Shown here: one piece after another, positions 15,844 to 22,097 of the stretch | How the letters are laid out: every line of letters begins with the position of its first letter | How positions within the stretch are numbered: the stretch's first letter is position 1 | From: Prochlorococcus sp. AG-459-B06 | GTDB lineage: Bacteria > Cyanobacteriota > Cyanobacteriia > PCC-6307 > Cyanobiaceae | Assembly: GCA_003209475.1 (NCBI GenBank) | Contig: QCQY01000007.1 | Span: 1 to 60,838, forward strand | DNA length: 60,838 nt | Direction: 5' to 3' | Notes under the pieces: model-generated | Seen by the model: only the letters and a program-made list of their open reading frames with translations | Told to the model about the DNA's origin: nothing | Database searches by the model: none | Position numbers and translations under genes: made by a program

Positions 15844-17506
<1,663 letters not shown>

Positions 17507-17507
<1 letters not shown>

Positions 17508-18679
17508 TGAGTTTTTCTTTTTTAAAATTTAGAAAAATCCCATTAGCTTGGTTGTTATTAACTAGGCAACCATTAAGGCTAGCAGTTGCCATAGCTGGAA
17601 TCAGTTTTGCAGGGATTTTGATGTTTATGCAATTAGGTTTTAGAGATGGTTTATTTGACACAAGTGTAACTATTCATAAACTTCTAGATGCCGATCTTGT
17701 TTTGATTAGTCCCAGATCAAAAAGTTCTATAAGCATGAGTGGCTTCCCAAAAAGAAGGTTAATTCAAACTCTTGCAGTAGAAGATGTTGAAAAAACTGCT
17801 CCCGTCAATCTAAATTATTTACTTTGGAGAAATCCCGATAATCTTAAAACTAGATCAATACTTGCATTAGGTTTTAATCCCTCCGATTCACTTCTTTTAG
17901 ATGAGGGATTCTCAAAGAAAGCTTATAAATTGAGAAATCCATCAAGGGTTCTTTTTGACAAACTATCTAGACCTGAATTTGGACCAATTGAAGAATGGTT
18001 CTTATCTGAAAAAAAAGTTGAGACTGAGGTTGCTGGAAAAAGAGTAATTGTTGAGGGCCTTGTGGAGTTGGGACCATCTTTTGGTGCAGATGGTAATTTG
18101 ATAACTAGTCGAGAAACCTTTTTAAGACTTTTTCCTGCTAATCCTCCTGGCAGTATAGAAATTGGTTTGGTAAAGCTAAAAAAAGGATCTGATCCTGAAT
18201 TGATTTCAAGGATATTAAATAACTCACTACCAAATGATGTTAGAGTTCTCACAAAAAAACAATTTATAGAATTTGAGAAGAATTATTGGAAAAATAGTAC
18301 TGCAATAGGTTTTATATTTAGTTTGGGAGCTTTGATGGGTTTCGTTGTAGGATGTGTAGTCGTTTATCAAATTCTTTATAGTGACGTTACAGATCACCTA
18401 CCTGAGTACGCCACCTTATTGGCAATGGGATATAGACTTAAGTCTCTTTTCTTTGTCGTAGCTAGAGAGGGAGTTTTGTTGGCATTGTTTGGTTATTTAC
18501 CTGCTTATTTCTCTGGTCAAATACTTTACTCAGTCATAAGAAGTTCTACTAAACTCCCAATAATAATGGACGCAGAGAAAACTATTTTAATTTTCGTATT
18601 AGTTTTAGTTATGTGTATGGGGTCCGCCGCTGTTGCGATGCGTAAATTAGTTGACGCTGATCCTGCTGAAATTTTTTAA
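17507..18679 (+). CDS. devC: DevC-type ABC exporter permease
   Basis: A 390-residue permease of the DevC family (MacB/FtsX-like fold). One transmembrane helix lies near residues 22-44, a large periplasmic domain at about 45-260, and three helices follow at about 265-290, 315-340 and 360-380, with the family ending VDADPAEIF. It starts within the devB stop (TAATG), and the ATPase gene follows 13 bases later. The large external domain fits an exporter working with an adaptor protein across the envelope. Substrate unknown. Confidence 0.9.
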
Positions 18680-18692
18680 CAATTAAAGATAA

Positions 18693-19421
18693 ATGGTTAA
18701 AGCTAATAAATCAAAAAATAATGTTAAAAACCTTAAAACAGTCTCGATAAATAATTTGAGTCACTTTTATGGGAAAAATGAGAATAAAAAACAAGTTCTT
18801 AACGAAGTTAATTTAAATATTGATAAAGGTGAGTTGGTTCTTTTAAAAGGACCTTCTGGATGTGGTAAAACGACTCTTTTAACATTAATTGGTGCCTTGA
18901 GAACCTGTCAAAGTGGAGATTTAACTGTATTAAATAATCAGTTAAATGGTGCATCAAGGAAAACGCGTCAGATTCTTAGAAGAAGTATTGGAATGATTTT
19001 TCAAGGTCACAATCTTCTGAGATGTTTAACAGCAGAACAAAATGTCCAGATGGGCGCCGATTTAATAAAAGGTTTAACATATTTGCAAAGAAGGGAAATA
19101 GCACGGAATTGGTTGTCATCAGTAGGATTAGAGGAGCATCATAAAAAGTTGCCAAATGACTTATCTGGTGGGCAGAAACAGAGAGTAGCAATTGCTCGAG
19201 CTTTATCTGCTAACCCGAAACTTTTATTGGCTGATGAGCCAACTTCTGCTTTAGATAGCGTCACAGGAAGAGAAATAGTAACCCTTTTAAGAAAACTAGC
19301 AAAAGAACAAAATTGTTCTGTACTTATGGTGACGCATGATCCAAGAATTTCTGATATGGCTGATAGGATATTAAATATGGAAGATGGTAAAATATATGGT
19401 GCTCATAGTGAGCTAATATAA
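18693..19421 (+). CDS. devA: DevA-type ABC exporter ATPase
   Basis: A 242-residue ABC ATPase. Walker A GPSGCGKTT begins at residue 53, the signature LSGGQKQR is near 156, Walker B LLLADEP near 176 and the switch histidine (VTHD) near 211. The sequence is of the MacB/LolD/DevA type, which fits the permease next to it. With devB and devC it completes a three-part exporter. The first 15 residues are a poorly conserved Lys/Asn-rich extension, so an internal start cannot be excluded. Confidence 0.92.
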   Translation: MVKANKSKNNVKNLKTVSINNLSHFYGKNENKKQVLNEVNLNIDKGELVLLKGPSGCGKTTLLTLIGALRTCQSGDLTVLNNQLNGASRKTRQILRRSIGMIFQGHNLLRCLTAEQNVQMGADLIKGLTYLQRREIARNWLSSVGLEEHHKKLPNDLSGGQKQRVAIARALSANPKLLLADEPTSALDSVTGREIVTLLRKLAKEQNCSVLMVTHDPRISDMADRILNMEDGKIYGAHSELI

Positions 19422-20587: not shown

Positions 20588-20596
20588 TGCTAGAAT
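20588..20596 (+). promoter_or_regulatory. Extended -10 promoter of rpsB-tsf
   Basis: TGCTAGAAT is an extended -10 element (TGn followed by TAGAAT, 5 of 6 to consensus). No good -35 is visible, which is normal for extended -10 promoters. Transcription from about 20603 would give a leader of about 89 bases that begins just before the paired elements of the rpsB leader, which supports both calls. Confidence 0.5.
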
Positions 20597-20615
20597 CGTT
20601 GAAATTAAATCCACA

Positions 20616-20679
20616 CATCTGACAGTTTCGGGTGATTTATTAATATTAATTCCCCGTCAGATGGAGGCTAACCCGAAAC
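20616..20679 (+). promoter_or_regulatory. rpsB leader with pseudoknot-ordered helices
   Basis: Two perfect complementary pairs interlock in the leader. CATCTGAC (20616-20623) pairs with GTCAGATG (20656-20663), and GTTTCGGGT (20625-20633) pairs with ACCCGAAAC (20671-20679). The order A-B-A'-B' is that of a pseudoknot. The second helix is followed by CTTTTTT (20680-20686), and a GGAGG lies at 20663-20667 between the 3' arms, 24 bases before the rpsB ATG. In E. coli the rpsB-tsf operon is repressed by its product S2 through a structured leader, so autoregulation here is a reasonable inference. Attenuation is an alternative. Confidence 0.65.
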
Positions 20680-20691
20680 CTTTTTTAAATT

Positions 20692-21396
20692 ATGGCTGTT
20701 GTATCACTATCAGAAATGATGGAAGCTGGTGCTCATTTTGGGCATCAAACTAGACGTTGGAACCCTAAGATGTCTAAATATATATATTGTGCACGAAATG
20801 GAGTTCATATTATTGATCTTGTAAAAACAGCATTGTGTATGAATAATGCGTATAAATGGACGAGAAACGCAGCAAAAAGTGGTAAACGTTTCTTATTTGT
20901 TGGTACAAAAAAACAAGCATCAGATGTAGTAGCTCAGGAAGCTACACGTTGTGGAGCTGCATATGTAAATCAAAGATGGCTTGGAGGGATGTTGACTAAT
21001 TGGACAACAATGAAAGCTAGGATTGAAAGATTAAAGGATCTAGAAAGAATGGAAAGTAGTGGTTCGATAGCAATGAGGCCTAAAAAAGAAGCTGCAGTAT
21101 TAAGGAGAGAGCTTGAAAGATTACAAAAATACTTAGGTGGACTTAAGGGTATGAGAAGATTACCAGATGTAGTTGTATTGGTTGATCAGAGAAGAGAATC
21201 TAATGCAGTACTAGAAGCTAGAAAATTAGATATCTCATTAGTATCAATGTTGGATACAAATTGCGATCCTGATTTGTGTGAAGTCCCAATTCCTTGTAAC
21301 GATGATGCCGTTAGATCTGTGCAACTTATTTTAGGAAGACTTGCGGATGCCATAAATGAGGGTAGAAAGGGCTCTAATGCCGAAAGAAAAAATTAA
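20692..21396 (+). CDS. rpsB: 30S ribosomal protein S2
   Basis: A 234-residue S2 protein. It shows the hallmark start [25 protein letters not shown], the central TKKQASD and [10 protein letters not shown] motifs, and [10 protein letters not shown] near the C-terminus. S2 joins the small subunit late and contacts S1. The gene forms the usual pair with tsf 44 bases downstream and is preceded by a structured leader. Length is normal. Confidence 0.98.
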
Positions 21397-21440
21397 ATTT
21401 AAATTTTAAACTTACTACTTACAATTTTTTATTACTTCAA

Positions 21441-22097
21441 ATGGGAAACATTACAGCAAAACTTGTAAAAGATCTTAGAGACAAGACTGGCGCAGGAATG
21501 ATGGACTGCAAAAAAGCACTTAACGAAACTGACGGAAATGTAGATAAAGCTTTGGAATGGTTAAGAAAGAAAGGCATAGCTAGTGCTGAAAAGAAATCAG
21601 GAAGAGTAGCGGCCGAAGGGTCAATTGGTAGTTATATACATACTGGATCAAGAGTGGGAGTTTTACTAGAGTTAAATTGTGAAACTGATTTCGTTGCAAG
21701 AGGTGATATATTCCAATCTCTGTTGAAGGATGTCTCAATGCAAGTAGCAGCCTGCCCAAATGTTGAGTATGTATCAATTGATGAAATTCCAAAAGATGTT
21801 GTGGAAAAAGAAAAGCAGATTGAAATGGGTAGGGATGATTTGTCAGGAAAACCAGAACAAATTAAAGAAAAGATAGTTGAAGGGAGAATAGCAAAAAGAC
21901 TTAATGAGTTAGTGTTGCTTTCACAACCCTACATTAAAGATAGTTCCCTAACAGTTGAGGATCTTGTTAAACAAGCAGCTGCAAAAATTGGGGAAAATAT
22001 CAAAGTAAGACGCTTTACAAGATATACATTGGGTGAAGGTATCGAAAAAAATCAGATGGACTTCGCTGAAGAAGTTGCATCAATGCAATCAAAATAG
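21441..22097 (+). CDS. tsf: Elongation factor Ts
   Basis: A 218-residue EF-Ts, the nucleotide exchange factor for EF-Tu. The N-terminal UBA-like domain holds [19 protein letters not shown] (TDxVGxMDCKKAL-type signature), and the core has [12 protein letters not shown]. It is the short form usual in cyanobacteria and chloroplast-like lineages rather than the longer enterobacterial form. It is cotranscribed with rpsB. The next gene begins within a few bases of its stop. Confidence 0.97.

Follow-up and report, generated by a model that had tools for sequence, protein, structure and literature searches.

Two descriptions published in 2009, one of an rpsB motif, reportedly by Meyer et al., and one of an rps2 leader in model cyanobacteria, said to be by Voss, concern structured RNA ahead of the gene for ribosomal protein S2. 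In the former, the rpsB motif comprises a helix P1, a variable P3, and a pseudoknot between J2-3 and a 3′ extension that is predicted as five pairs; Cyanobacteria are named among the carriers, and in them P2 is short or absent (PMC2704228). The rps2 leader, cluster 394, appears as a predicted structured element and possible rps2 5′UTR (PMC2662882), and the word "pseudoknot" is absent from the main text of that paper. Repression dependent on S2 has been reported in E. coli (PMC2704228, PMC10931766), where the element is described as a translational operator which excludes the ribosome-binding site and whose mechanism is called unclear (PMC10931766). This γ-proteobacterial autoregulation of rpsB-tsf (Aseev et al. 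2008, cited through PMC10931766 and PMC2704228) concerns the same operon and a leader related to the one described below.

The rpsB leader in Prochlorococcus

The DNA analyzed here is a stretch of 60,838 nucleotides from Prochlorococcus sp. AG-459-B06 (contig QCQY01000007.1), which we call the window. An earlier note on it had claimed two perfect helices of 8 and 9 bp, interlocked in the order A-B-A′-B′ within 64 bases, downstream of an extended −10 box and directly before rpsB. We found all of these elements, and the parts of the leader are as follows.

20588 to 20596, plus strand: extended −10 promoter element TGCTAGAAT, read from the window sequence
20612 to 20615, plus strand: CRCA directly 5′ of P1, conserved in the leader comparison
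20616 to 20623, plus strand: P1 5′ strand (helix A), CATCTGAC, from sequence and covariation
20625 to 20633, plus strand: J2-3, the pseudoknot 5′ strand (helix B), GTTTCGGGT, from sequence and covariation
20634 to 20655, plus strand: variable loop or weak P3, 22 nt in the window, P3 by RNAalifold
20653 to 20655, plus strand: loop-terminal CCC, complementary to GGG at 20630 to 20632, a possible competitor of the pseudoknot
20656 to 20663, plus strand: P1 3′ strand (helix A′), GTCAGATG, from sequence and covariation
20663 to 20667, plus strand: GGAGG in the junction of P1 and pseudoknot, an element of the motif and not the rpsB Shine-Dalgarno sequence
20671 to 20679, plus strand: pseudoknot 3′ strand (helix B′), ACCCGAAAC, from sequence and covariation
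20680 to 20691, plus strand: 12-nt spacer without a Shine-Dalgarno sequence
20692 to 21396, plus strand: rpsB, ribosomal protein S2, 234 aa, ATG at 20692, from the open reading frame and relatives
21441 to 22097, plus strand: tsf, elongation factor Ts, second gene of the operon, from the open reading frame

We take the reading frame at 20692 to 21396 to be rpsB, a name that came from the earlier note and from general knowledge of S2, and that at 21441 to 22097 is presumably tsf; judging by their translations, three genes farther upstream (16593 to 19421) may encode a membrane-fusion protein, an FtsX-like permease and an ABC ATPase. A single base (20624) separates P1 from the pseudoknot 5′ strand, so that P2 is absent or very short. 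The pseudoknot 3′ strand, followed directly by CCTTTTTT, ends 12 nt 5′ of the rpsB ATG, and the GGAGG shares its first G with the A′ strand and ends 24 nt before the ATG.

Because the structural features that we tested for were all present, namely the position upstream of rpsB, the long P1, the absent or very short P2, the variable P3, and the pseudoknot of J2-3 with the 3′ extension, we filed the leader under the rpsB motif. It resembles the published motif in its place before rpsB, P1, short or absent P2, variable P3 and pseudoknot topology, and differs from it in having nine pseudoknot pairs where five are predicted and, throughout the Cyanobiaceae, in lacking a Shine-Dalgarno sequence (PMC2704228). 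By description, it also resembles cluster 394, a predicted structured 5′UTR of rps2 in cyanobacteria (PMC2662882). The statement in the earlier note that no structure of this kind had been described in cyanobacteria was thus mistaken, as the first of these sources describes the topology and names the phylum and the second lists the rps2 leader. We consider it probable that the leader represents the known rpsB motif in Prochlorococcus and works by S2-dependent closure, whereas the anatomy particular to the lineage (loss of the Shine-Dalgarno sequence in Cyanobiaceae, a pseudoknot that there usually has 9 bp, and a CCC at the end of most loops) may be new.

Chance does not readily produce the two helices, as the earlier note had argued. 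When the 89-nt leader was shuffled 4000 times with dinucleotides preserved, no shuffle contained a pair of interlocked perfect helices with at least 8 and 9 bp (163 contained a weaker pair, with at least 6 and 7 bp). Of 2025 stretches of 89 nt taken along the window in 30-nt steps, one had such helices, the leader's own, starting at 20611. Folded as a single sequence, the leader was modestly more stable than its shuffles (z of −1.89, 6 of 200 as good). In the minimum-energy fold, which is free of pseudoknots, the GGG pairs instead with the CCC of the loop, and P3 is weak and contains mismatches.

Conservation and covariation of the two helices

We collected 251 rpsB leaders in three sets. The Prochlorococcus set (80) consists of the window and 79 close relatives, out of the best 80 of a longer list; two of these 79 loci are titled Synechococcaceae and the remainder Prochlorococcus, and one entry, L058, was left out before counting because its contig holds no leader. 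A search of the family gave 76 leaders, taken from 99 further genomes with a match, of which four (L083 to L086) belong to the window's own genus; we refer to this set as other Cyanobiaceae. The third set, 95 leaders of other Cyanobacteriia, was taken from 129 genomes outside the family with a match in a search of the class. Rows were aligned on anchor columns, consisting of the CRCA-like letters, GGGT, the G-rich junction and ACCC, without the use of pairing, and the anchoring rule admitted only distances of 13 to 14 nt from the start of P1 to GGGT. This rule accepted 244 of the 251 leaders (79 in the Prochlorococcus set, 75 other Cyanobiaceae and 90 other cyanobacteria), and 158 of the 244 are distinct. 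Of the seven that remained unanchored, L050 is cut at a contig end, and L114, L185, L194, L198, L203 and L205 fail the rule, though all six match the covariance model R1 introduced below. In L198 and L203, inserted bases separate P1 from the pseudoknot strand (by eye), at the position that P2 occupies in the published motif. Some anchored rows with long loops, among them L089, L129, L215, L231 and L232, are out of place, aligned at a GGGT that lies too far upstream, and since they were kept, the pairing counts given here are lowered.

Among the 158 distinct anchored leaders, P1 pairs 1 to 8 formed in 125 to 157 rows, and up to 80 rows showed double-sided changes; pseudoknot pairs 5 to 8 formed in 127 to 147 rows, and pair 9 in 94. 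All nine pseudoknot pairs, with G-U allowed, were present in 79 of 79 leaders of the Prochlorococcus set, 68 of 75 other Cyanobiaceae and 13 of 90 other cyanobacteria; at least seven of the eight P1 pairs together with at least six of the nine pseudoknot pairs were present in 66 of 75 and 85 of 90 of the latter two sets. The bases directly 5′ of P1 were CACA or CGCA in 77 of 79, 68 of 75 and at least 76 of 90 leaders, respectively, and the loop ranged from 16 to 28 nt in the Prochlorococcus set.

The earlier note had called the structure a probable pseudoknot and had suggested aligning leaders for compensatory changes; when this was done, both helices were kept and both covaried. We also aligned 59 selected leaders with short loops by MAFFT. 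In this alignment, 94.6% of cells in the two helices were paired, compared with 82.8% after shuffling, and 134 cells showed double-sided changes, compared with 38.5 after shuffling, a value that none of 500 shuffles reached. Partners slid out of register paired in at most 52.9% of cells. Changes on both sides were seen somewhere in 12 of the 17 pairs, including 7 of the 8 in P1. For the pseudoknot alone, 91.8% of cells were paired (84.3% shuffled), and the 33 cells with double-sided changes (10.7 shuffled) were reached by 0 of 500 shuffles; on two weaker measures, 2 and 11 of 500 shuffles did as well. Three of the nine pairs were invariant, one varied on one side only, and sliding the pseudoknot by one column still left 20 double-sided cells as compared with 33 in the true register. 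RNAalifold recovered P1 and a P3 of five pairs unaided. We conclude that the RNA pseudoknot is real and is well conserved in cyanobacterial rpsB leaders.

Relation to the E. coli t44 element

We built a covariance model of P1 and P3, R1, from 59 training rows, and scanned 171 loci (L083 to L253), 47 of which are also in the training set. R1 matched directly upstream of rpsB in 171 of 171, at one place each, the weakest match being that of L235 (E of 0.0016). When applied to 1201 bases of E. coli, it gave 20 places, the best of which was the rpsB leader (21.8 bits, E of 1.1e-5), overlapping the annotated t44, with the next at 7.3 bits. In the other direction, the Rfam model of t44 (RF00127; E. 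coli tff, the S2 operator) scored 26.7 bits (E of 9.6e-4) on 301 window bases, below its gathering cut-off of 44 bits; at that cut-off it matched nowhere in the whole window and, under strict filters, in 0 of 145 cyanobacterial genomes, where one weak match of 21.9 bits was seen. Judged by these matches in both model directions, the window leader is homologous to the E. coli S2 leader. The two are alike in having CACA, GGGUG, UGGAGGC and UAACCC at matching places and in the presence of P1. In contrast, the t44 pseudoknot has, by eye, about 5 bp (GGGGU with ACCCC), compared with 9 bp in the window. The cyanobacterial element is the rpsB motif, related to t44 yet missed by the Rfam model as it now stands (0 of 145 genomes above the cut-off for t44, as against 171 of 171 loci for R1). 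With a corrected model it would be annotated.

A search of the wider phylum gave matches in 64 of 146 genomes, all within the class, and five matches (E of 0.008 to 0.09) away from rpsB. One genome, G024, had no match in this search, yet its leader L169 matches R1; because the strict filters lose true cases such as this one, we drew nothing from the misses.

Shine-Dalgarno sequences at rpsB and tsf

None of the 156 Cyanobiaceae leaders (80 plus 76) had AGGA, GGAG or GAGG at positions −17 to −4 of rpsB, as opposed to 95 of 95 leaders of other cyanobacteria. In the 90 anchored leaders of other cyanobacteria, the Shine-Dalgarno sequence begins 6 to 12 nt from the first A of the pseudoknot 3′ strand, so that closing the pseudoknot would crowd or cover it; the corresponding distance to the E. 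coli AGAGG is 16 nt by eye. We rejected the junction GGAGG as a ribosome-binding site for rpsB, as it lies too far from the ATG, and in E. coli a GGAGG at the same junction place is accompanied by the separate AGAGG nearer the start (by eye). Among the anchored leaders, moreover, the GGAGG is constant in the Prochlorococcus set (79 of 79) but not in other Cyanobiaceae (69 of 75) or other cyanobacteria (67 of 90).

Loss of the Shine-Dalgarno sequence is not peculiar to rpsB, a possibility ruled out by tsf, which we located by its TGAGMMDCK stretch with starts assigned by a simple rule that may be wrong in places. Of 78 loci in the Prochlorococcus set, none had a Shine-Dalgarno-like 4-mer before tsf, nor did any of the 32 located in other Cyanobiaceae (4 were not located); elsewhere, 6 of 10 located loci had one (5 were not located). 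At 21424 to 21437, before the window's own tsf, there is likewise no such 4-mer, the window being one of the 110 located Cyanobiaceae loci, of which 0 had one. Prochlorococcus as a whole is described as likely not reliant on Shine-Dalgarno sequences, with S1-dependent or leaderless initiation as possibilities, in PMC5607370. The survival of the motif in a lineage whose rpsB has no Shine-Dalgarno sequence offers a clean comparison of an initiation block with and without one.

Promoter and predicted transcript start

An extended −10 pattern, TGNTANNNT, was found 12 to 29 nt upstream of the motif in 227 of the 238 leaders with enough sequence; in a control stretch 120 to 180 nt upstream, the pattern occurred in 68 of 244. 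Its position in the window predicts a transcript start at about 20602 to 20604, and therefore the motif should begin about 8 to 12 nt into the mRNA. The leader pseudoknot is probably transcribed with rpsB and probably controls its translation. The main texts of four transcript-start papers (PMC7368042, PMC2518516, PMC5069720 and PMC6091082) make no mention of rpsB.

Proposed role of the leader and alternatives

The role of the leader is likely to be S2-dependent feedback repression of rpsB-tsf translation, as judged by homology with E. coli. P1 closes the leader near the predicted transcript 5′ end, and the loop strand GTTTCGGGT pairs with ACCCGAAAC just before the start codon. In the mechanism that we propose, S2 in excess of free 30S subunits would bind the folded leader and hold the pseudoknot closed. 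The usual 30S footprint reaches beyond 12 nt 5′ of the AUG. The 3′ strand of the closed pseudoknot, 12 nt from the AUG, would lie within it, and because the closed pseudoknot would occupy that footprint, rpsB initiation would be blocked and tsf expression lowered as well. Closed in this way, the pseudoknot of other cyanobacteria would crowd or cover the Shine-Dalgarno sequence; in Cyanobiaceae that sequence is gone, and therefore the block would need to act on loading that is independent of it.

The earlier note had left translation or termination control as possibilities, and of these, translation gains from the relation to the translational operator of E. coli, while termination loses because the T-run is not conserved outside the Prochlorococcus set. 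An intrinsic terminator or attenuator, in which helix B and the T-run would halt transcription before rpsB with P1 competing, is suggested by the window's nine-pair helix, with CCTTTTTT directly after it, and by T-runs of at least 5 in 48 of 79 anchored leaders of the Prochlorococcus set. Such runs were found, however, in 2 of 75 other Cyanobiaceae and 0 of 90 other cyanobacteria, and since runs of at least 6 are rare (10 of 79, 0 of 75 and 0 of 90, respectively), a terminator is disfavored; the helices are kept outside the Prochlorococcus set while the U-run is not, helix B would enclose a 37-nt loop, and the related E. coli element is described as a translational operator (PMC10931766). We regard termination control as very improbable, and the idea that the helices are chance inverted repeats without RNA function, contradicted by the covariation, the shuffle controls and the R1 matches in 171 of 171 loci, as having next to no probability. 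A structured mRNA element that is insensitive to S2, and that stabilizes the message or aids S1 in recruiting ribosomes, would suit the Cyanobiaceae, with no Shine-Dalgarno sequence at rpsB and, according to PMC5607370, a possibility of S1-dependent or leaderless initiation in Prochlorococcus, and no S2-binding or expression test in a cyanobacterium was found among the literature matches listed. Against such an element, the motif stays with rpsB in 171 of 171 scanned loci, and its E. coli relative reportedly responds to S2 (PMC10931766); we think this explanation improbable.

The remaining alternative is a two-state switch confined to Cyanobiaceae, in which the GGG would pair either with the loop CCC (on) or with the ACCC of the 3′ extension (off); in the on state the P1-P3 hairpin would be extended and the start region free, and S2 or the growth state would select the off state. 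A CCC within the last 7 loop nucleotides was common in distinct Cyanobiaceae loops (104 of 120) and rare in those of other cyanobacteria (3 of 83), and in the window the minimum-energy fold uses the CCC-GGG pairing. By set, loop-end CCC occurred in 47 of 49 Prochlorococcus and 60 of 74 other Cyanobiaceae loops, with mononucleotide-shuffled means of 0.7 and 7.1, and elsewhere in the 3 of 83, with a shuffled mean of 3.7. Rough energies of the two states are also close, −17.7 for the hairpin state, including a second small hairpin, and −10.0 for P1 plus −13.0 for the pseudoknot duplex, before loop penalties. Nevertheless, dinucleotide-shuffled loops paired with GGG nearly as often as the real ones (a mean of 48.5 vs 49 of 49 in the Prochlorococcus set and 66.7 vs 71 of 74 in other Cyanobiaceae), so that this control gave no separation from chance in the former and a slight one in the latter, and in other cyanobacteria local GGG pairing (43 of 87) fell under the shuffled mean of 64.6. 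The GGG is invariant in the anchored set, GGGT being an anchor, so covariation cannot address its pairing with CCC, and the CCC perhaps contacts a protein or goes back to one change inherited within a single clade. We consider such a switch unlikely. A slightly more doubtful reading is that the Cyanobiaceae S2 leader was rebuilt when the Shine-Dalgarno sequence was lost, with the pseudoknot lengthened by a G-C pair where the former AGGAG had stood, a CCC gained in the loop as competitor for the GGG, and a two-state switch of initiation independent of that sequence; if true, such two-state control would be a form of S2 feedback unlike the proteobacterial one. A loop-end CCC complementary to the pseudoknot GGG was noted at 20653 to 20655 and in L083 to L096, L112 to L133 and L214 to L253. 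As a separate observation, in L220 both potential partners of the GGG carry T for C (loop end CTT and 3′ strand ACTC, by eye), a single case.
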